64,000 nucleotides of DNA from a virus (IMGVR_UViG_3300001398_000004:18837-82836), one strand, 5' to 3'. Shown: positions 3,466 to 35,000, numbered from the stretch's first letter. The notes: generated by a model not told the origin, from the letters alone. A program made the numbers and translations.

Positions 3466-3987
3466 ATGGCGCCTACTACTGAACCTACCTTTTGGTCAGC
3501 GGCTTGGGTTTGGACCAAGAAAGCGGCCCGCATGGTGGCCGCTCCCCTTCCGGCCTTGCTGTTGATGGCAGGGGCTATCGTCCTAGTCGTTCTAGGGGCT
3601 AAGAACATCCAAATCGGTGGTCTATTGGGCAAGTTGTTCGGTAAGGATCCAGCGAGCAGCAAAGCTGTGGACGTAGCCAACACCATTCCGGCTCATCGGG
3701 TGGATTCGAATGGTGCCATCATCCCGGTGGGTACCCCGGATGCAACAGGGCAGACCCAGGCGGTGGTTGTCCCGATCGCTACCCCCACCATGTTCTCTGA
3801 CCCGAACACGGTGACGATTACGCCTCCGAACTCAGCTCCCGTGGTCGTGGCGTTGCCTACCGGTGTAAAGTCATCCGACGTGGACAAGGTCGTGATAGTG
3901 AAGCCCGAAATCTACGCGGTTACCGTGAAGGACTCTTCTTCGGTGACCGGGTCCCATATCGACGACCTGCTGAAGAAGTATCAATGA
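3466..3987 (+). CDS. Single-pass membrane protein
   Basis: 173 residues from the ATG at 3466, five bases after the upstream stop. An in-frame GTG at 3433 would add 11 residues and overlap the upstream gene; I prefer the ATG. One strong transmembrane helix lies at about residues 25-45, followed by a Val/Pro/Thr-rich region and a small domain ending in a charged helix. It overlaps the next gene by ATGA. Function unknown; part of a membrane/secreted cassette. Confidence 0.55.
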   Translation: MAPTTEPTFWSAAWVWTKKAARMVAAPLPALLLMAGAIVLVVLGAKNIQIGGLLGKLFGKDPASSKAVDVANTIPAHRVDSNGAIIPVGTPDATGQTQAVVVPIATPTMFSDPNTVTITPPNSAPVVVALPTGVKSSDVDKVVIVKPEIYAVTVKDSSSVTGSHIDDLLKKYQ

Positions 3988-4592
3988 GAAAAATCCTCCT
4001 GATCCTGTTGACGCTATTTTTGGGCATCACGCCAATGGGGGCTCAGGCTCAGGAGTGTGCTCCTGGCAGCAAGTGTGTGTCCGCAGACGACCTAAACACT
4101 CTTCTCACAATAGCGAGAGAGAAGCAGTGCCTACTCAGCACCCAGCCTACCATCACGATGGATCCGGTCACACTGACTATCGATCGCCAGGGGCGCATCT
4201 TCTTCACAGGCTCGGCTCCGCACCCATACTCATTGAAGATGTCTTGGTGCAATTACACCTTGGCCGCCCAAGGAAAAGTCACTGTTGTGGCTGCTGTCGA
4301 AGAGCCGCCGGACTGGGGTTTCCGATTTCGGCCGAAAGCCTACATGGGTGTTTTGCCCCTGGAGCCTTTCCACACGGGCAACAACGCAAGGAGCGCAGTG
4401 GATGCGGGCCTCATGCTCGACCCGCTGTACTACAAGTTCCTGAACCTCAACGTTCACGTAGGATTCCGAGCTGTGGGCGCTGGCATTGGAGTAGATCTGA
4501 CTCGTAATTTTGGGGTGTATGCCGGCTACGCACTCACGTGGGACGGTTTCAGGCAGAATCCTGAAGCGGCACTCTGGTTTTCTTTCTTCTGA
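3984..4592 (+). CDS. Secreted protein with outer-membrane-like C-terminus
   Basis: 202 residues, translationally coupled (ATGA) to the gene before it. Residues 1-22 form a signal peptide, probably cleaved after AQA. The last about 60 residues alternate hydrophobic and polar residues and end in Phe (LWFSFF), a pattern known from outer-membrane beta-strands. Two Cys pairs in the N-terminal part could form disulphides. I infer export and possibly outer-membrane insertion, consistent with a Gram-negative host. A lysis role is possible but there is no spanin signature. Confidence 0.5.
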   Translation: MRKILLILLTLFLGITPMGAQAQECAPGSKCVSADDLNTLLTIAREKQCLLSTQPTITMDPVTLTIDRQGRIFFTGSAPHPYSLKMSWCNYTLAAQGKVTVVAAVEEPPDWGFRFRPKAYMGVLPLEPFHTGNNARSAVDAGLMLDPLYYKFLNLNVHVGFRAVGAGIGVDLTRNFGVYAGYALTWDGFRQNPEAALWFSFF

Positions 4593-26546: not shown

Positions 26547-27797
26547 ATGAGAAGCTGTAGCCTCTGCCAACGTCCTGAGAACGAAGTCAAACAGCTAGTC
26601 GAGATGACTGGTGGTGCTTGTATTTGCAACAGGTGCGTTGCCACAGCCGCTGGTTTGATAGGTGCATCTCCTAAGCAAAAGAAGGAGGAGGATGCTCCTC
26701 TGCTCAAGCCCAAAGAGATCCACGCTGCCCTAAGTGACTACGTGATAGGGCAGGAACACGCCAAAAAGGATATCTCCGTCGCCATATACAACCACTACAA
26801 GCGCCGCGAGGCCTTGAAGCATGGGATAAACTTCGAGGTTGAGATTCAAAAGAGCAACATCTTGATCTTGGGCCCTACAGGTAGCGGCAAGACCGAGCTG
26901 GCGCGGACCATCGCCAAGAAGCTGAAAGTGCCTTTGTTCGTGGGAGACGCCACAAAGCTGACTTCGTCGGGCTACGTGGGGGATGATGTTGAGTCATTGC
27001 TCCAGGGTCTAATGACCACTTGTGGCAATGACGTGGAAAAGGCTGAATGGGGCATCGTCTTCCTGGACGAGGTGGACAAGATCGCTCGTAAGTCCGGTAA
27101 ATCAGACTCTGGGTTCCGAGACGTGTCTGGGGAGGCTGTCCAGCAGGCGCTCCTGAAGATGCTCGAAGGTAACCAGGTCTCTGTTCCCCGAGCGGGCAAG
27201 TCAGGTATGGGTGGGGAATACGACATCCTCGACACCAGCAACATCCTCTTCATCTGCGCCGGCTCCTTTGCAGGAATCGAAGAATCTGTCAATCGCCGTA
27301 AGAACAGCGGGGCATCCCTGGGATTTGGTGGCCAATCCAGGACAAAGTTCACGGGAACGGACATCTACATGGCCGTGGAAGAGGACGACATCCTGGACTT
27401 CGGGATCATTCCGGAGATGCTGGGTCGCATTCCCGTGCGAACGACGACTGTACTCCTGACTGAGGACGAGATGGTGCGGATTCTCACAGAGCCTAAGAAT
27501 GCCCTAATCAAGCAATTCCAGGCCCTCTTTGAGATGGACGGGATCGACCTGCAATTCGACGAGGAAGCCCTTAAAGCGATTGGCCGGGAAGCTATCAAAC
27601 GGCCAACGGGGGCTAGAGCCCTACGAAGCATTGTCGAACGAATCCTCAAACCTTATGCCTACGACTCTCCCAGCGACCCCTCAATCAAGGGTATCAGGGT
27701 CACCAAGGAAGTGGTGGAGGGGACGGGAACGGCCGCTATTTTGACGGAATCCTCGGAGCAATCTGAAGTTCTTACGGTATTGACCGCGTCGATTTGA
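26547..27797 (+). CDS. clpX: ClpX-like ATP-dependent unfoldase
   Basis: 416 residues, full ClpX architecture: N-terminal zinc-binding domain with C4, C7, C27, C30; Walker A GPTGSGKT at 109-116; Walker B IVFLDEVDK at 170-177; sensor and lid regions (RIPVRTT, PTGARALRSI). It unfolds tagged proteins and normally feeds ClpP. No clpP is in this window, so it may use host ClpP, act alone as a remodeller, or pair with a phage peptidase elsewhere. Has its own class 1 motif. Confidence 0.92.
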   Translation: MRSCSLCQRPENEVKQLVEMTGGACICNRCVATAAGLIGASPKQKKEEDAPLLKPKEIHAALSDYVIGQEHAKKDISVAIYNHYKRREALKHGINFEVEIQKSNILILGPTGSGKTELARTIAKKLKVPLFVGDATKLTSSGYVGDDVESLLQGLMTTCGNDVEKAEWGIVFLDEVDKIARKSGKSDSGFRDVSGEAVQQALLKMLEGNQVSVPRAGKSGMGGEYDILDTSNILFICAGSFAGIEESVNRRKNSGASLGFGGQSRTKFTGTDIYMAVEEDDILDFGIIPEMLGRIPVRTTTVLLTEDEMVRILTEPKNALIKQFQALFEMDGIDLQFDEEALKAIGREAIKRPTGARALRSIVERILKPYAYDSPSDPSIKGIRVTKEVVEGTGTAAILTESSEQSEVLTVLTASI

Positions 27798-27815: not shown

Positions 27816-27835
27816 ATTGCTCAGTACGCTGAGAC
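27816..27835. repeat. 20-bp hairpin element, copy 1
   Basis: Minus-strand reading GTCTCAGCGTACTGAGCAAT. CTCAG/CTGAG stem with TACG (plus strand) or CGTA (minus strand) loop. Identical to the copy at 32915-32934. It lies in the 70-bp gap before the gene at 27868. Confidence 0.75.
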
Positions 27836-27867
27836 ACTTATTGGGTACACTTAGGCAGGGAGCCCAC

Positions 27868-28005
27868 ATGAGCCTGACCGCCAAGATCGTAGCCCGACAC
27901 AAGGAAGACCCCAAGCAGCTGTCCAACGTCACTTGGAGCAACTTCACTGACTGGCTGAACAAGAACAAGATCGGCTACGACATGCAGTTCTCCTCCTGGC
28001 ATTGA
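27868..28005 (+). CDS. Small hypothetical protein
   Basis: 45 residues, ATG with CAGGGAG upstream. Starts MSLTAKIVARH, sharing the VAR-type N-terminus with its downstream neighbour. Four bases separate it from that gene. No further function visible. Confidence 0.55.
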   Translation: MSLTAKIVARHKEDPKQLSNVTWSNFTDWLNKNKIGYDMQFSSWH

Positions 28006-28009
28006 GACA

Positions 28010-29359
28010 ATGACTGCCCCCACGCGCCTAGTAGCTCGATATCGTTTTGCGTTCGAGCACGCTACCGAGAAGGAGATGAACCACTATCTTCATCTCCATC
28101 CTCACGCGGACCCGAAGAACCATGTCGTGAAGAAGAACGATGAATCTGGGTCTGCGGAGGAAGACGAGCACGGGGGCCATGGCGAGCACGAGGAGAAGGA
28201 AGAGACAGCCGTCTCCAACAAGCAGAAGGTGAAGAACGTCTTCAAGGGCTTGTCAGACAAGGCTAAGGCGCTCGTAAAGAATGCCCCAGCTGTGGTCCAG
28301 AAGTTCGTAGTCGACGCAGAGCACCGTGAGAAGGTGATGATGGACGCGGCTAAGTCCGTCTTGAGGTCACCCAAGGGCTATGCTCGGAACTTGGTGAATG
28401 TGGCCAAGGAGGTCCACGAGTTCAAAGAGGCGGGGCTTGCCATCAAGGACGTGATCTCGGGTAAGAAACTCAACGATCACCAGAAGAAAGCTGTGAAGAA
28501 GGTCGCCATCCATATGGCGATCACAGCAGCAGCTGCGGCCATCTCGACCACAGGGATCTTTGCTGGGGCCGCCTTCATGGGCAAGGCCATGGCCAAAAAG
28601 ATCGCGATGAAAGCGGCTCTGAAGGCCATGGAGAAGGTCCACATCCTAGGTGAACTTCACCATATCAGCCATGAAGCTATCCATGGTATCGTCGAGCTGA
28701 TGGACAAGTTTGCAGCTGAGGAAGAAACCGGTGACGAAGAGCTGACTCCTGAAGAAGCCCTGGCCGCGTTGGTGATGAAGTGTATCACAGATGCCTTGGC
28801 TGAGTTCAACGAAGAGGACATTGGAGAAGCCCTGGAAGACGCCTCGGAAGAGAAGCAGAAGCTGTCTTGGAAGCGGACGACGGCCACCTCTAGTGACCTG
28901 CCCAAGTTGTTAACCGAAGCAGCGACGGCCATTCGAGAAGTGCAGGCAGTGCTGACACATTTCGATCGGTTGATGGTACTTTCCAGGCACAATGCAAGTC
29001 AGACGGGCCTATCAGAGGATCGTGTGTGGCAGACATCCTGGGTCAAGTACTTCACTGGGATCGAGCACCCTCTGACCATTCTTGAGCGTGTATCGGACTC
29101 TTTGGATGACATCTACTTGGATGTCCCAGCACAGGCGGACGTGGCCAACGATGCTAGAGGAGCGCTGATTCTCCCTCGTAAGGCTTTGGTTACCTACGCC
29201 ATTTCGGATATTGATTTCTCCCCCAACCCGGACACAGGTCGGGAGGGGATCTCCTACAGTGTTCCAGTACTCAGGGAGTGGTCGAAAGCTCTAGAGGTCT
29301 GGGCCAAGTCGTCCCTTACCAAGATCTCGGGGTTGGCTCGAATCAGTACTCGCTGGTGA
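28010..29359 (+). CDS. Helical protein with acidic/His-rich linker, likely virion-associated
   Basis: 449 residues. N-terminal motif TRLVARYRF, then an Asp/Glu/His-rich linker (about 38-70), a long helical part with a small hydrophobic Ala/Ile stretch (about 165-185, could be membrane-active), a second acidic part and a C-terminal globular domain. No family recognised. Composition resembles phage inner-virion or ejected proteins; this is speculation. Confidence 0.6.
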   Translation: MTAPTRLVARYRFAFEHATEKEMNHYLHLHPHADPKNHVVKKNDESGSAEEDEHGGHGEHEEKEETAVSNKQKVKNVFKGLSDKAKALVKNAPAVVQKFVVDAEHREKVMMDAAKSVLRSPKGYARNLVNVAKEVHEFKEAGLAIKDVISGKKLNDHQKKAVKKVAIHMAITAAAAAISTTGIFAGAAFMGKAMAKKIAMKAALKAMEKVHILGELHHISHEAIHGIVELMDKFAAEEETGDEELTPEEALAALVMKCITDALAEFNEEDIGEALEDASEEKQKLSWKRTTATSSDLPKLLTEAATAIREVQAVLTHFDRLMVLSRHNASQTGLSEDRVWQTSWVKYFTGIEHPLTILERVSDSLDDIYLDVPAQADVANDARGALILPRKALVTYAISDIDFSPNPDTGREGISYSVPVLREWSKALEVWAKSSLTKISGLARISTRW

Positions 29360-29368
29360 GGGGCCCCT

Positions 29369-29375
29369 GGTGTAG
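29369..29375 (+). promoter_or_regulatory. Class 1 promoter-like motif (GGTGTAG)
   Basis: Nine bases before the GTG of the DUF1848 gene and directly after the preceding stop. Confidence 0.45.
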
Positions 29376-29384
29376 GATCAAGGG

Positions 29385-30227
29385 GTGAACCTGATCCGCA
29401 GCGGTAAAGTCGAGAACCTCCCCTATTCGTTGTCTAGGTGGACGGATGTCCCTGGAAGTGCGAACAAATGGTCTTGGTTTCTCCAACAGATGAAGCAGGG
29501 CTGGATGACAGCCTTCGACCAACGCACTTCTATACCCCAGAAGTGGAGTCTCAAGCCTGAGGACACCTTGGGGTTGATGTTCTGGACGAAGAACGCTACC
29601 AACCTCCTCAACCATCGGGAGCTGTTCAAGCCCTACAACGTGAAGGTGCACGTCACTGTCACGGGGTGGGAAGAGGTCGAGAAGGGGGCCCCGGGTATTC
29701 TAGAGGGGGCGACCCTTCTTCGGGATACGGCCCGAGCCTTTGGGCGTGAGAACGTGACCTGGAGATTCTCGCCCGTACCCATCCTGGAGAGTGTGGCCCT
29801 GAGGTTCAAGGCCATTGCCTCAGTGGCAGCTGAGGCCGGCGTACAATCGGCCTACCTGTCGTTCCTACAACCCAATGACTTGGTGCCTGAGACCCGGTCT
29901 GAAAGCGATCGTAAAGCCCTCCTGCATAGCCTATCTGACATTGCCAAGGGCTATGGGATAGAGGTCCGGCTCTGCAATGAGGACTCCCTATTGACGGGGG
30001 AGCAGGACTATCCGAACCTGTCCTCTGGAGTCTGCGCAAAACCAGAGGATTTTGCCCTATCCTCACGGGATATGCCCCCGGCTGAGGGCTGTGGCTGCGT
30101 GATGGCTGTGGATCCGTTCACACTGAATGAGTCGTGCAACTACGGATGTGCCTACTGTTACGCCTCCGACAAGAGCCTAACACCCAAGAAGCGTAATACT
30201 ACTCGCAGCCTCCCTGTGGTAAGATAG
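29385..30227 (+). CDS. DUF1848 family protein
   Basis: 280 residues starting at GTG after AAGG. The opening segment (DVPGS, then FWTKN) and the C-terminal Cys cluster CGC...SCNYGCAYCYA match DUF1848, a family with a TIM-barrel radical-SAM-like relation to spore photoproduct lyase. The cluster probably holds iron-sulphur. A DNA-repair or RNA-modification role is possible; the reaction is not established to my knowledge. Has its own class 1 motif. Confidence 0.75.
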   Translation: MNLIRSGKVENLPYSLSRWTDVPGSANKWSWFLQQMKQGWMTAFDQRTSIPQKWSLKPEDTLGLMFWTKNATNLLNHRELFKPYNVKVHVTVTGWEEVEKGAPGILEGATLLRDTARAFGRENVTWRFSPVPILESVALRFKAIASVAAEAGVQSAYLSFLQPNDLVPETRSESDRKALLHSLSDIAKGYGIEVRLCNEDSLLTGEQDYPNLSSGVCAKPEDFALSSRDMPPAEGCGCVMAVDPFTLNESCNYGCAYCYASDKSLTPKKRNTTRSLPVVR

Positions 30228-30231
30228 GGCC

Positions 30232-30492
30232 ATGAAGCCCCCTCCTTTGGAAGACTCTGAGGATTTCACCGCAGAAGAAGCGGAGTACGCCATCCCCGCG
30301 GCTACCTCGCAGTTCGTTCTGGCATCGGCAGGCGAGGTAGCAGAGGCCCTACCCGGTAGGTCTATCCGGTACGAACTCCGTCGTCGCCGGCCTCACATGT
30401 ACTGCCGGACTCTGATAGGGACTCCGGGAAACCCGGATAAAGTCTTGGTTTTTCGCCTTGATTGGCTAAAGGAGATCCCAGATGGCGTGTGA
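30232..30492 (+). CDS. Hypothetical protein
   Basis: 86 residues, acidic N-terminus and basic Arg-rich centre (YELRRRRPHMYCR). Overlaps the next gene by 11 bases. No family recognised. Confidence 0.55.
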   Translation: MKPPPLEDSEDFTAEEAEYAIPAATSQFVLASAGEVAEALPGRSIRYELRRRRPHMYCRTLIGTPGNPDKVLVFRLDWLKEIPDGV

Positions 30493-30916
30493 AAATCCTA
30501 GTTGTTCATGTAGCGGCAGCTGCACAGAGAAGTTCCACGATACCTGTGGGTGCACTATTGACGGCGTGCAGGTAGTTAGTCCTGACCAACTGTACGAATT
30601 TCAGGGTGGGTCCGCTTGCAATCTCGACCGCAAGAACAACGTGTGGGTTGAGGGTCCCGTGGACTCGAACGGCGTTGGAGGCATCTGTTTGCTGGACACT
30701 CTGTGTGAGCAACAGATCGTCGATGTCCTTCAACGAGACGACCGGGCTAGAGCGGATCTAGTGCGGGTCACGACCCACCCTCGTCTATTGGAACTGGCAG
30801 CAACTGTGCCACATCTTCCGAAGACCAACGACGGGGACACTCTCCAGAAGGAGATGAATGCGGGAACGATCCCGTTTTACACTCAATTCCGCGGACAGCC
30901 GCCCTTCTCCCAATGA
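30482..30916 (+). CDS. Cys-rich hypothetical protein
   Basis: 144 residues; ATG with AAGGAG upstream inside the previous gene. The first 35 residues hold nine Cys (CENPSCSCSGSC, then CGC), a probable metal-binding cluster; the rest is mixed with two further Cys. No family recognised. ATGA overlap with the next gene. Confidence 0.6.
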   Translation: MACENPSCSCSGSCTEKFHDTCGCTIDGVQVVSPDQLYEFQGGSACNLDRKNNVWVEGPVDSNGVGGICLLDTLCEQQIVDVLQRDDRARADLVRVTTHPRLLELAATVPHLPKTNDGDTLQKEMNAGTIPFYTQFRGQPPFSQ

Positions 30917-31254
30917 GCAGCTTCGGACGTAAGGCCCAGCGAAAGAATCGCCCCAAATCTGCCGGCGCTTCGACGCAGTTAACGAAAGCGATTGAGGCTC
31001 TTGGGCAGATCCAAGCTCTGGGAAACCTAGGAGATCTTGCCCCACTAGTCGAGGAGACACACCGTTTGGTGGTGTTGGCCTCGGAAGACGTTCAGAACGT
31101 TTCCCGAGAGCTGGCTCATCATCGAGCGGTGCTGGAGATTTTGGCCAAGGGGAATGGGGAGGCGATCCAGTTGCTCAGCTTCAACGATGACGACGAACTG
31201 CCTCAGGTCCCTCAGCTTGAAATTGTAGACGTGAGGCATCGTGACCGAACATGA
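30913..31254 (+). CDS. Coiled-coil hypothetical protein
   Basis: 113 residues in an ATGA overlap. Basic N-terminus (GRKAQRKNRPK) followed by a long amphipathic helix (about 25-90) likely to form a coiled coil. No family recognised. ATGA overlap with 31251. Confidence 0.6.
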   Translation: MSSFGRKAQRKNRPKSAGASTQLTKAIEALGQIQALGNLGDLAPLVEETHRLVVLASEDVQNVSRELAHHRAVLEILAKGNGEAIQLLSFNDDDELPQVPQLEIVDVRHRDRT

Positions 31255-31768
31255 AGACCCGCCTTTTGATTCCACAGACAGCTCGACGAGCCCCAACCTC
31301 CCCAATCGAATGGGAGAGGCTGATGCAGGTGGTGCTCACAAGGGCGTCCGCGATCTCGGATCCTCGTCTGAGCATGTTGAAGGCGGCGATCCCTCAGGGC
31401 AAGACCGAGCAGGTGCTTCGTCAAATGGGGATCATCTGCGAAAACGACGTGCAGAGAGAGTTGCCACTCCCAACGACGTAGGCGTAATCGAAGATGCCTT
31501 GCTTGAGGCATTTAAGCAAGGCGACCCCGAGGCTGCGTACCAGCTCGTTCGCGACCTGGCTGATCTGGCTCTTAGTTCAGTGGTAGATGCGGCAAAGGCC
31601 AGATTTAAGGCTAACTTTGGCTCTAAACGTTGTCTGAGCTGTGAGGGCTTGGAGGTCAGTCCTGGGGTTGTGGCGACCTGTGTTCAGGTGAATCAATGCT
31701 ACTACACGAACTTCAAGCAGGGGGATCTGACACCGAAGCAGGCTCGCATCCTCCGTGTCCTGGGTTGA
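31241..31768 (+). CDS. Hypothetical protein, start uncertain
   Basis: 175 residues if started at the GTG at 31241. The part after 31481 is certainly gene-like: helical region (EDALLEAFKQGDPEAAYQLVRD) then a Cys pair (CLSC) and two more Cys. The first 80 residues are Ser/Gly/Asp-rich and share bases with the gene 31251-31481, so they are either a disordered tail in a true dual-coding stretch or an artefact, with the real start near the TTG at 31499, or the two frames are joined by a -1 shift. Confidence 0.45.
   Translation: MTEHEDPPFDSTDSSTSPNLPNRMGEADAGGAHKGVRDLGSSSEHVEGGDPSGQDRAGASSNGDHLRKRRAERVATPNDVGVIEDALLEAFKQGDPEAAYQLVRDLADLALSSVVDAAKARFKANFGSKRCLSCEGLEVSPGVVATCVQVNQCYYTNFKQGDLTPKQARILRVLG
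31251..31481 (+). CDS. Small hypothetical protein, overlaps next frame
   Basis: 76 residues, coupled by ATGA to the gene before. Third codon positions are mostly G or C as in other genes here, which supports it as coding. It lies wholly inside the longer frame 31241-31768. No family recognised. Confidence 0.5.
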   Translation: MKTRLLIPQTARRAPTSPIEWERLMQVVLTRASAISDPRLSMLKAAIPQGKTEQVLRQMGIICENDVQRELPLPTT

Positions 31769-31806
31769 CCCTTGCATTGGTGTGAGCTAGGTGTTAGGTA
31801 TATCAA

Positions 31807-31831
31807 GGGTGCTCTGCGAACCACAGCACCC
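31807..31831 (+). other. Leader hairpin
   Basis: GGGTGCT pairs with AGCACCC around an 11-base loop, 25 bases before the ATG at 31856 in an 87-bp gap. A GGTGTGA variant of class 1 lies at 31779. Could be a leader stabiliser or weak terminator. Confidence 0.35.
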
Positions 31832-31855
31832 ATATGTAAATCATAGGAGATAGAC

Positions 31856-32890
31856 ATGACGTTAGCGAAAGTGTTCCTGCAAATTGGGCAGGGCTTGGAC
31901 GAAGAGATCGCCAAAGCCGGCCGTACTCTCAATGCTGCGATTGCTAGCAGCCTCAACAATCTGATGGCTAGCACCAGCCAGGGCCCCGCCAAGCGAGGTC
32001 TGAAGCCAAAGACAGCCATTGCTGCTCCAGTGCCACAACGGGCGAAGCCCAAGACGACGACGGCGGTAGCTGCTCCCAAAGCTCCCAAAGCTGTCAGCGC
32101 AGCCACTCGTGCCGCTGTTTCTAGGGGACGCCAAGCAGTCGTAAACGGGACTAGGCCGAAGGCAGTAGATGCTCTGGCCACGGTCATGGGCAATGCCACG
32201 ATGAAGGCTGCGAGTATGGTGGCCGCCCTTGAGTCCCGTGGTTGGCTTCCAAACTCTGGCTCGCCACAGAACTACGTCAGCTATCTGCTCAGCTCAAACC
32301 CCGACATCTTTGAGCGGGTCAATCGCGGCGAATACAGGGTCATCAAGGGTGCCAACCTGGGAAAAGCGCCAAAGACTGCTCCCAAGGCAGCAGCTCCGAA
32401 AGCAGTTGCCAAAACGGCCAAAGCTCCGAAAACCCAAAAGTTGGGTGCTAAGGCACCCAAAGCAGCCCCGGTGATTAACGCCGGAACAGTCCCGGGCGGA
32501 AAACGGCCGAAGGCGGTCGATGCTCTGGCCACGGTCATGGGCAATGCCACGATGAAGGCGGAGGATGTGGTCGCCGGCCTGGAGTCCCGTGGTTGGCTCC
32601 CCAATTCAGGAAAACCGCAGAACTACGTCAGCTACCTGCTCAGTTCGAACCCCGACATCTTTGAGCGGGTCAATCGTGGTGAGTACAAGGTCATCAAGGA
32701 CGCCAACCTGGGAAAAGCGGCAGGGGTCTCTAGCAGCGAAAACGGAAGCTCGGAGGCGGTAATTCCGGCTCCGAGCGCTTCCGTAGCTAGTGGCCCAGCC
32801 CCTCAAGAACTGGACGAAGACCTTGTTGACCTGCTTGGTGTGGGCCAAACCAGCGAAGTTGCTGGGAACCCCTACCACGCCAGAACCTGA
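31856..32890 (+). CDS. DNA-binding protein with two HARE-type winged helices and Lys/Ala/Pro linkers
   Basis: 344 residues. Two nearly identical about 70-residue domains (about 101-170 and 218-287) each read ALATVMGNATMKA...GWLPNSG..QNYVSYLLSSNPDIFERVNRGEY, a winged-helix pattern close to HARE-HTH domains. They are joined and flanked by Lys/Ala/Pro-rich linkers like histone H1 tails. ATG preceded by AGGAGAT. A chromatin-like or DNA-compaction role is inferred. The second domain arose by a recent internal duplication. Confidence 0.7.
   Translation: MTLAKVFLQIGQGLDEEIAKAGRTLNAAIASSLNNLMASTSQGPAKRGLKPKTAIAAPVPQRAKPKTTTAVAAPKAPKAVSAATRAAVSRGRQAVVNGTRPKAVDALATVMGNATMKAASMVAALESRGWLPNSGSPQNYVSYLLSSNPDIFERVNRGEYRVIKGANLGKAPKTAPKAAAPKAVAKTAKAPKTQKLGAKAPKAAPVINAGTVPGGKRPKAVDALATVMGNATMKAEDVVAGLESRGWLPNSGKPQNYVSYLLSSNPDIFERVNRGEYKVIKDANLGKAAGVSSSENGSSEAVIPAPSASVASGPAPQELDEDLVDLLGVGQTSEVAGNPYHART
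32156..32721 (+). repeat. Internal tandem duplication in HARE-type gene
   Basis: 32156-32370 and 32507-32721 are near-identical at the base level with an offset of 351 bases (117 codons). Long stretches such as the run around 32172-32215 and 32523-32566 are the same. Confidence 0.85.
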
Positions 32891-32914
32891 TAAATTGGGG
32901 ATCTTTCAGATTCA

Positions 32915-32934
32915 ATTGCTCAGTACGCTGAGAC
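32915..32934. repeat. 20-bp hairpin element, copy 2
   Basis: Identical to 27816-27835. Here the element ends directly at the ATG of the next gene (32935), so its hairpin would sit at the very start of translation. Confidence 0.75.
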
Positions 32935-33276
32935 ATGGATGATCTCCTCTTTCGGACCACGGTAATGATCGCCAGACGGCTGCTCAAAAGCCGCCTCAGG
33001 CTGTTCTTGAGCCGGATCATGGAAAGTGGGCCGGATGGCGAAAACTGGAAACCCGTCATCACCTTCGAAGAAGGTGTAGAAGAGGAGGCCAAGCAAGCGT
33101 GGCGTAACGTCCGCGGGTGTTGGGCCACCTCTTCTACATCGAAGGCCATGCTGGAATTCGCTGCCAAGCAAGCCTACCGTCAAGCTAAGCTTGATGTTAT
33201 CGACTTGTTCCAGGCAGAGGTGGACGATAAGTGGCTGAAGTCTTCAATCCGCAGTTACCGCCCGACTCTGGAGTAA
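32935..33276 (+). CDS. Hypothetical protein
   Basis: 113 residues. Very basic amphipathic N-terminal helix (IARRLLKSRLRLFLSRI), then acidic and helical. No family recognised. Two bases separate its stop from the next start. Confidence 0.55.
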   Translation: MDDLLFRTTVMIARRLLKSRLRLFLSRIMESGPDGENWKPVITFEEGVEEEAKQAWRNVRGCWATSSTSKAMLEFAAKQAYRQAKLDVIDLFQAEVDDKWLKSSIRSYRPTLE

Positions 33277-33785: not shown

Positions 33786-35000
33786 TCAACCCCATCCCTA
33801 AAGGGCGGAGTTTTGCAGATCAAGTCCATGGCTCACAACCACTTCAACCCTGTCCGCGTTTGGCCTGATTACGGTGGCCCGGCTAGCAATTACGCTAGCC
33901 GCGTTGGCGTCGGCATCCGCGCTGTGCCCACATGCAAGACAAGCAAACAGATCGCGAGTCTTACGGTTGGCCTTCTCGATATGACCGCAAACGCGGCATT
34001 CCCGGGAAGTATTGCGAGGATCGACAAAACAGACAGCAACCCCAGCACGCTTGGCTTTGTACCCGATCTTGCTTTGCAAGTCAGCGAAGGCCCAAGAGTG
34101 CAGAGAGCGTCGTTGCGACCTGGAAGCTCGGATCCGGGAGCGGATGCCATCGAGGTTTTCGATGGCTATACCGCGTCCGGTGCGTTCGGCAGCATCGACA
34201 ATCTGTTTAGAAATAACATGATTCACATGCGAAGAAAATCGGGATTCTTTGCGACGACGCTTCTTGAGCAGCCGTTTAGCGCTTTTGGTGCCTTTCGTTT
34301 GGAGCTTTTTGCGCAACCGGAATGCCCGTCCGCGGAGTGCATTAAGGTGTGTTCCGCTGAAATTCTGGCCGTCGCTAGTGGTAGCAATATTCACGATGCC
34401 AACGTCTACCCCGAGCCAGCCAAGCGTCTTATGCTCTTCGGTGTCAGGCACATCGACAGTGACAAACAGGTAGAATTTTCGGTCACGAAGGATGAGATCG
34501 GTTTCGCCACGCTCGTACTTGAGCAAGGCTCGCTGGTGGGTGCCACAAACGAACGGGATACGTTGACGGCCGTTGACTGTCCAGATATTGGTGGAATCTC
34601 CCCGCCACGACAGGATCCTAGCATCGTACGAGATGGCCCCCAGCGGCCGGAACGTTCGACGACAGATTTTGTCGAGTTTGTAGGAGTCAGCGACCTTGGC
34701 GATGCATCGCACGACTACCTGCGAGGACATTCCTGGAAATTCAGAGCGAGCGTCGTGATAAGCGAGCTTATGGAGGGCGAATTGCCGGAAGATCTGTCCT
34801 TCCCAGGCGCGGTCGGAAATCCAGTTGCAAGCAGCATTAGCTCGACGGATCGTAGCCTCAAGCGCAGCAAATTGCTCAGCCGTCGGCTTGAGCTGAACTT
34901 GCACCACGAGCTTCATTTCACAATGCTAGCAGTTTCTATACTTGAAGCAAGCCAAGCCGTAACAAGTCTGCGCTCCATCCCGAACGGTCGGGTTTCCGCC
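33786..35000 (-). mobile_element. IS200/IS605-type element with TnpB only
   Basis: Approximate limits. The right end (minus strand) is CCGCCC-TTTA-GGGATGG next to the TnpB stop, the usual place of the guide-RNA end and terminal hairpin. A left-end hairpin candidate CCCGA-ACGG-TCGGG is at 34979-34992. No TnpA transposase is present, so it would need one in trans. Confidence 0.6.
33798..34916 (-). CDS. tnpB: TnpB RNA-guided nuclease (IS605 OrfB family)
   Basis: 372 residues, normal TnpB length. RuvC motifs: D171 in GVDVG, E253 in IAIENLDG, D336 in DADANAA; zinc ribbon CRVC...CLAC (307-328). The N-terminal helix-turn region and the KLK pattern are typical. TnpB cuts DNA guided by an omega RNA from the element's right end and promotes element retention. 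The right-end RNA would read through the last codons toward 33786. Confidence 0.92.
   Translation of the reverse strand: MKLVVQVQLKPTAEQFAALEATIRRANAACNWISDRAWEGQIFRQFALHKLAYHDARSEFPGMSSQVVVRCIAKVADSYKLDKICRRTFRPLGAISYDARILSWRGDSTNIWTVNGRQRIPFVCGTHQRALLKYERGETDLILRDRKFYLFVTVDVPDTEEHKTLGWLGVDVGIVNIATTSDGQNFSGTHLNALRGRAFRLRKKLQTKGTKSAKRLLKKRRRKESRFSSHVNHVISKQIVDAAERTGRGIAIENLDGIRSRIRASRSQRRSLHSWAFADLQSKIGYKAKRAGVAVCFVDPRNTSRECRVCGHIEKANRKTRDLFACLACGHSADADANAASVIASRATVIRPNADRVEVVVSHGLDLQNSAL

Follow-up and report, generated by a model that had tools for sequence, protein, structure and literature searches.

CasPhi (also called Cas12j; type V-J) is a compact editing enzyme that, to our knowledge, is known only from huge phages, and its role for the phage is poorly known. 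The 3' 20 nucleotides (nt) of its CRISPR repeat consist of ATTG, a 5-bp stem, a 4-nt loop, and AC, ending at the spacer junction, and correspond to the handle of the CRISPR RNA (crRNA). A 64,000-nt stretch of viral DNA (IMGVR_UViG_3300001398_000004:18837-82836; here, the window) contains two identical 20-nt hairpins that resemble this part of the repeat. They differ from a CasPhi repeat in being single, with no array, no 16-nt 5' half, and no CasPhi gene in the known contigs of the phage.

Solitary repeat units in viruses are already known and act as RNA anti-CRISPRs (Racrs) (PMC10651486, Camara-Wilpert et al. 2023). Such units are single and repeat-like, lie in viral intergenic DNA away from cas genes, and often follow a promoter; the window hairpins are likewise solitary, intergenic, and viral, with no cas gene adjoining. 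The hairpins described here differ in that they comprise the handle only, belong to the type of a phage-borne effector, lie mostly in mRNA 5' leaders, occur in several copies per genome, are also present in effector-carrying phages, and are putative inhibitors. In the literature searched, we found no account of solitary units reduced to the handle of a phage-borne type V-J effector and located at the transcript starts and in the gene leaders of many huge phages. Virus-borne CRISPR mini-arrays (reviewed in PMC11656645) are also CRISPR pieces located in viruses away from cas genes, and one degenerate two-repeat case occurs in G008, a phage discussed below, whereas each window copy is one handle with no second repeat. 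Repetitive extragenic palindromic (REP) elements, associated with RAYT transposases, are short dispersed intergenic hairpins that are uniform within a genome; by comparison, most carriers of the hairpins described here lack a Y1 transposase, and the spacing from the promoter is conserved.

Our preferred, still tentative, reading is that the window hairpins may be solitary handles of the CasPhi crRNA that serve as RNA ligands, probably as Racr-like decoys. It draws on the sequence, fold, covariation, and boundaries of the element, its sharing with arrays beside CasPhi genes, its placement behind promoters in sibling contigs, and the absence of CasPhi from the known contigs.

Two solitary hairpins in the window and its sibling contigs

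The 20-mer ATTGCTCAGTACGCTGAGAC (plus strand) is present in the window as exactly two identical copies, at the positions given in a preliminary description of this DNA and, as also noted there, each just before a gene: copy 2 abuts the ATG of an open reading frame (ORF) at 32935-33276, and copy 1 lies 32 nt ahead of ATG 27868.

27816..27835, plus strand: handle hairpin copy 1 (ATTG-CTCAG-TACG-CTGAG-AC), solitary and CasPhi-type; exact pair within the window, 20-mer found in two sibling contigs, stem covarying across phages
32915..32934, plus strand: handle hairpin copy 2, solitary and CasPhi-type, with an ATG directly after it; the same arrangement of GAGAC and then a start codon occurs at loci L187 and L107

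The copies are single units 5.1 kb apart and form no array with spacers. No further match to ATTGCTCAGTACGCTGAGAC with three or fewer mismatches exists elsewhere in the window, and dinucleotide shuffles of the window gave a mean of 0.01 matches and in no case two. The 20-mer folds as ATTG-(CTCAG)-TACG-(CTGAG)-AC (-5.5 kcal/mol). Read on the minus strand, both copies give GTCTCAGCGTACTGAGCAAT, as the preliminary description had it, but the functional strand is the plus strand (CTCAG-TACG-CTGAG); both copies occupy short gaps between plus-strand genes.

The 82.8-kb record that contains the window (G000; G and L numbers denote the contigs and loci compared) holds the 20-mer only as these two copies. 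Beyond that record, the exact 20-mer occurs in IMG/VR only in G001, with one copy in 51.6 kb, and in G002, with three in 155 kb, making two copies in G000 and four in its siblings; the dozens per genome envisaged for an ordinary intergenic element were not seen. Because G000, G001, and G002 have a common G+C content (54%) and tetranucleotide signature, hardly overlap in gene content, and line up collinearly, one after another, along the 323-kb phage G008 (0-80 kb for G000, reversed; 81-135 kb for G001; and 150-262 kb for G002), they look like three pieces of one huge phage; on this reading, G000 would come from the same sample as the other two. Compared with G008, about 30 kb or more of this phage is missing, and the positions of solo copies in the two syntenic phages do not correspond. 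Across bacterial and archaeal genomes totaling 257 Gb, the 19-mer was found once, inside atpC, where ~1.9 occurrences were expected by chance; a bacterial origin was therefore rejected, and the hairpin is not an ordinary bacterial element.

Relation to the CasPhi crRNA handle

A wide pattern scan for the handle architecture (TTG, 5-bp stem, TNNG loop, AC) recovered three arrays with the handle at the 3' end of every repeat (L055 in G008, L027 in G005, and L011 in G003), and a CasPhi gene adjoins each of them. Small-contig single-copy matches of this first wide pattern mostly had unpaired stems; these were taken as chance and left out of the counts. The G008 CasPhi protein aligns with CasPhi-2 (PDB 7lys) at 535 bits. 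The CasPhi-2 repeat given in PMC11048056 shares the layout of the window handle, and in the Cas12j3 structure (PMC8298400), R338 contacts C-1 and U-18, beside the G-17:A-2 pair. The contact bases U-18, G-17, A-2, and C-1 are kept in all 38 solo copies, with one C-1 to T change as the sole exception. In sequence, in fold, and at these four bases, the window 20-mer agrees with the handle of a CasPhi repeat. The resemblance proposed in the preliminary description is thus borne out for handle sequence and fold by the three arrays adjoining CasPhi genes. An exact match to the CasPhi-1 repeat, which ends in ...GATTGCTCAGTACGCTGAGAC, is putative, and no CasPhi-1 array was found in the sequence collections searched.

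A CasPhi gene beyond the window, for which that description had suggested looking, did not emerge: none was found anywhere in G000, where only a TnpB is present, and none was detected in the ~290 kb of the window's phage represented by the incomplete contigs G000, G001, and G002. In G002, the region matching the G008 CasPhi locus has no CasPhi but contains endonuclease-like genes of the HNH and GIY-YIG types, among others. Searches of INPHARED and plasmid collections also found no CasPhi.

Fold and conservation boundaries

Stem covariation was evaluated over 18 distinct sequences, in which 90 of 90 stem cells are paired (score of 0.58, versus 0.13 in shuffles; part of the set was collected with pairing required). 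When pairing was not demanded, the motif TTGCTC-N8-GAGA paired at its two free positions in 30 of 32 occurrences (five contig sets), and a reversed control motif occurred once. Selection on the fold is evident from these compensatory changes, and on such comparative grounds the element is predicted to act as RNA, not DNA. Conservation over the 38 solo copies begins at -20 and ends at -1, which is the repeat/spacer junction. Folding of the 35 nt downstream of the handle was not significant (mean z score of -0.29 +/- 0.22) and was strong in some copies only; a general conserved structured region after the handle was therefore rejected. A covariance-model search of six loci against Rfam gave no match up to E = 1.

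Solitary copies in other huge phages

About ten huge-phage lineages carry solo copies, usually near gene starts and mostly without detectable CasPhi. G008 has a 7-repeat array and about ten dispersed copies, all with the stem CTCGC/GCGAG; a large tRNA cluster holds six of the dispersed copies, and a degenerate mini-array is formed by two (194573/194643). The second CasPhi phage, G005, has an array and one solo copy in a tRNA cluster, the stem of which is that of its own array. Carriers without detectable CasPhi, whose records may be incomplete, are G013 (327 kb), G014 (406 kb; G010 is a near-copy), G022 (363 kb), G021 (321 kb, with two copies separated by 44 nt), G004/G011, G020, G023, and G024. 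Most solo copies lack the 5' half of the repeat. No coherent set of downstream genes was found, and several copies precede no gene or sit in tRNA clusters.

The degenerate two-repeat CasPhi mini-array of G008 is found at L095 2074-2144 (minus strand), ~23 kb from the main array and before a RuvC-resolvase-like ORF.

Predicted placement at transcript starts

In G008 and G000-G002, an ATG stands 9-12 nt downstream of the motif YYGGTGTA with counts of 14, 16, 7, and 7, versus ~1-2 at other distances, and this enrichment suggests leaderless mRNAs as the apparent general mode in these huge phages. The GTG of G008 CasPhi itself lies 10 nt after a motif of this type. Seven hairpins, three of them in G002, one in G001, and three in G008, start 10-12 nt after YYGGTGTA (TTGGTGTA-type promoter), where the ATG would be, and are therefore the predicted 5' ends of their transcripts. 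One of the G002 copies is a standalone unit of promoter, handle, second hairpin, and terminator (~90 nt, -39 kcal/mol), and one G008 copy lies 23 nt ahead of a tRNA-Ser. The two window copies may be transcribed by read-through from upstream genes.

Proposed decoy function

We favor recognition by the CasPhi family as the best single account of these hairpins because the handle is complete, its boundaries are sharp, the contact bases are kept, and stems are shared with arrays in G008 and G005; a Racr-like decoy is favored because of the lack of CasPhi in ~290 kb, the kinship to CasPhi phages, and the standalone small RNA in a sibling contig. According to this model, solitary CasPhi crRNA handles would be deployed as RNA outside arrays, positioned at the 5' end, or close to it, of either a leader or a small RNA that stands alone. 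The handle would be bound by a CasPhi-family nuclease in the way that the nuclease binds its crRNA, via U-18, G-17, A-2, and C-1, which surround a stem whose sequence is free. An mRNA leader, tRNA leader, or second hairpin would take the place of a useful spacer, so that the captured enzyme would stay occupied, and the predicted outcome would be an RNA anti-CRISPR-like decoy against the CasPhi of rival huge phages. Where the phage itself carries CasPhi, the handles might instead tune that enzyme or the transcripts tagged with them. What we infer from the sequence comparisons is binding, action as a decoy, and the transcription of both window copies.

That handles stand at the starts of transcripts in about ten lineages, most of them with no detectable CasPhi, suggests either RNA-based counteraction or control of CasPhi or an older phage RNA element as the source of the repeat. 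It is possible, though we would not press the point, that a widespread leader RNA hairpin of huge phages, whether regulatory or decoy, is the same module as the CasPhi crRNA handle, so that CasPhi adopted, or is countered by, a pre-existing phage RNA element. If true, the origin of a CRISPR repeat could be traced, and a conflict at the RNA level would be seen for the first time around a phage-borne CRISPR system. Tool makers would gain an off-switch from a natural decoy RNA for CasPhi, if real.

Sequences following the handle

The 20-nt stretches after the handles showed a best seed match of 12 nt to their own genome and, in 1.37 Mb of compared phage sequence, no match above shuffled guides. 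In an exact IMG/VR scan of three post-handle 20-mers, two (from G002:141655 and G001:31674) matched unrelated viral genes over exactly 20 nt, and the third, from window copy 1, had no match. One match is to a replication-initiation-like gene in six contigs (L177-L182), with a 5' flank of GAC, which is not a TBN protospacer-adjacent motif (PAM); the other is to a gene of unknown kind in L196, with a flank of TGC, which is a TBN PAM. By our estimate, 0.02-0.05 matches per 20-mer would be expected by chance, and the observed number seems higher. Both matching stretches fold into hairpins (z scores of -3.9 and -1.9).

Alternative explanations

Several observations weigh against the decoy reading. 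Carriers of solo copies exceed detectable CasPhi arrays in IMG/VR, and many copies lie in gene leaders, 0-25 nt before the start codons of unrelated genes, rather than in dedicated small RNAs. G008 and G005 carry CasPhi yet keep solo copies, which is odd for a pure decoy. At the two window copies themselves, neither YYGGTGTA (position weight matrix scores of -5.3 and -5.8) nor a nearby sigma-70-like site was found, and the exact 20-nt matches to viral genes fit a guide better than a decoy. The first two of these points also favor a regulatory 5'-leader hairpin that is independent of CasPhi, controlling RNA stability or translation intrinsically or via an unknown phage RNA-binding protein, with the CasPhi repeat derived from it; so do the location of the hairpin downstream of a general phage promoter, at the start of transcripts, and its occurrence in records of 321-406 kb without detectable CasPhi. 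This explanation, the main rival of the decoy reading, is likewise tentative; against it, conservation ends exactly at the repeat/spacer junction, the genes downstream form no coherent set, several copies are before no gene or within tRNA clusters, and the solo stem equals the phage's own array stem in G008 and G005. Between the two options raised in the preliminary description, we rank solo repeats or decoys slightly higher than a hairpin that first had a regulatory role and was then taken up as a repeat.

Control in cis by CasPhi would have the nuclease process or occupy the handle in tagged transcripts as in pre-crRNA, tuning their stability, with the enzyme encoded in the missing part of the window's phage. 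CasPhi-2 does lower expression in yeast from mRNA with its repeat in the untranslated region (PMC9943656), the G008 array and solo copies have a common stem, and the missing 30 kb or more leaves room for the gene; nevertheless, we consider this unlikely given the lack of CasPhi in ~290 kb of the window's phage and in the large records G013, G014, and G022, and the other genes that take the G008 CasPhi position in G002. Similarly improbable are solo crRNA genes, in which each handle would be followed by a working guide of ~20 nt. Their transcripts would start at the mature handle, tRNA processing would release the handle plus 23 nt from the copy upstream of the tRNA, and two of the three tested 20-mers match viral genes ending exactly at nt 20, one of them with a TBN PAM. 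However, no above-chance match exists in the compared phage sequence or own contigs, both matching guides fold into hairpins, one match lacks a PAM, and the other post-handle stretches run into coding sequence. Least probable, and in our view very unlikely, is a mobile or decaying element, either hairpins of the REP kind dispersed by a Y1 transposase or remnants of former arrays. The dispersed copies at nonorthologous positions in two syntenic phages and the degenerate pair in G008 would fit such an origin, but most copies lack the 5' repeat half, promoters stand at fixed spacing, and compensatory changes show that the fold is under selection. A REP/RAYT element was rejected as an identity on the grounds that the Y1 transposase (PF01797) is absent from G000-G002 and G008 and present in only 2 of 16 carrier records.

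Neighboring genes and other features

Five genes or ORFs flank the window hairpins.

26547..27797, plus strand: ClpX-like AAA+ ATPase gene (Pfam AAA_2, zf-C4_ClpX), with its stop 18 nt before copy 1
27868..28005, plus strand: 45-amino-acid (aa) ORF starting at ATG 27868, 32 nt downstream of copy 1, with a GGAG ribosome-binding-like site; no Pfam/PHROG match
31856..32890, plus strand: 344-aa ORF, with its stop 24 nt before copy 2; no family match
32935..33276, plus strand: 113-aa ORF that begins right after copy 2; no Pfam/PHROG match
33798..34916, minus strand: TnpB (IS605 OrfB/Cas12f-like) gene with RuvC acidic motifs present, on the opposite strand to the hairpins, any link to them being hypothetical

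A TnpB guide RNA (omega RNA) was ruled out as the identity of the hairpin, with tnpB on the minus strand, hairpin copy 2 on the plus strand, and 863 nt between them. The window TnpB looks intact, and a 41% identical relative is found in G013 (224863-226014), near another solo hairpin.

Very large tRNA clusters (~40 tRNAs each) with a transfer-messenger RNA (tmRNA) are present in G008 (220-248 kb) and G002 (74-105 kb). At L096 11565 (minus strand) in G008, a 47-nt tRNA-like fold directly follows a solo hairpin; it has an acceptor stem (GTCAGGA/TCCTGAC) and a T-arm, without normal D and anticodon arms. A second CRISPR-like array in G008 (L097, about 3770-4010), with four repeats CAACGGAAGCCCACCTCCATCAAGAGTGGGAC, is located inside the tRNA cluster.

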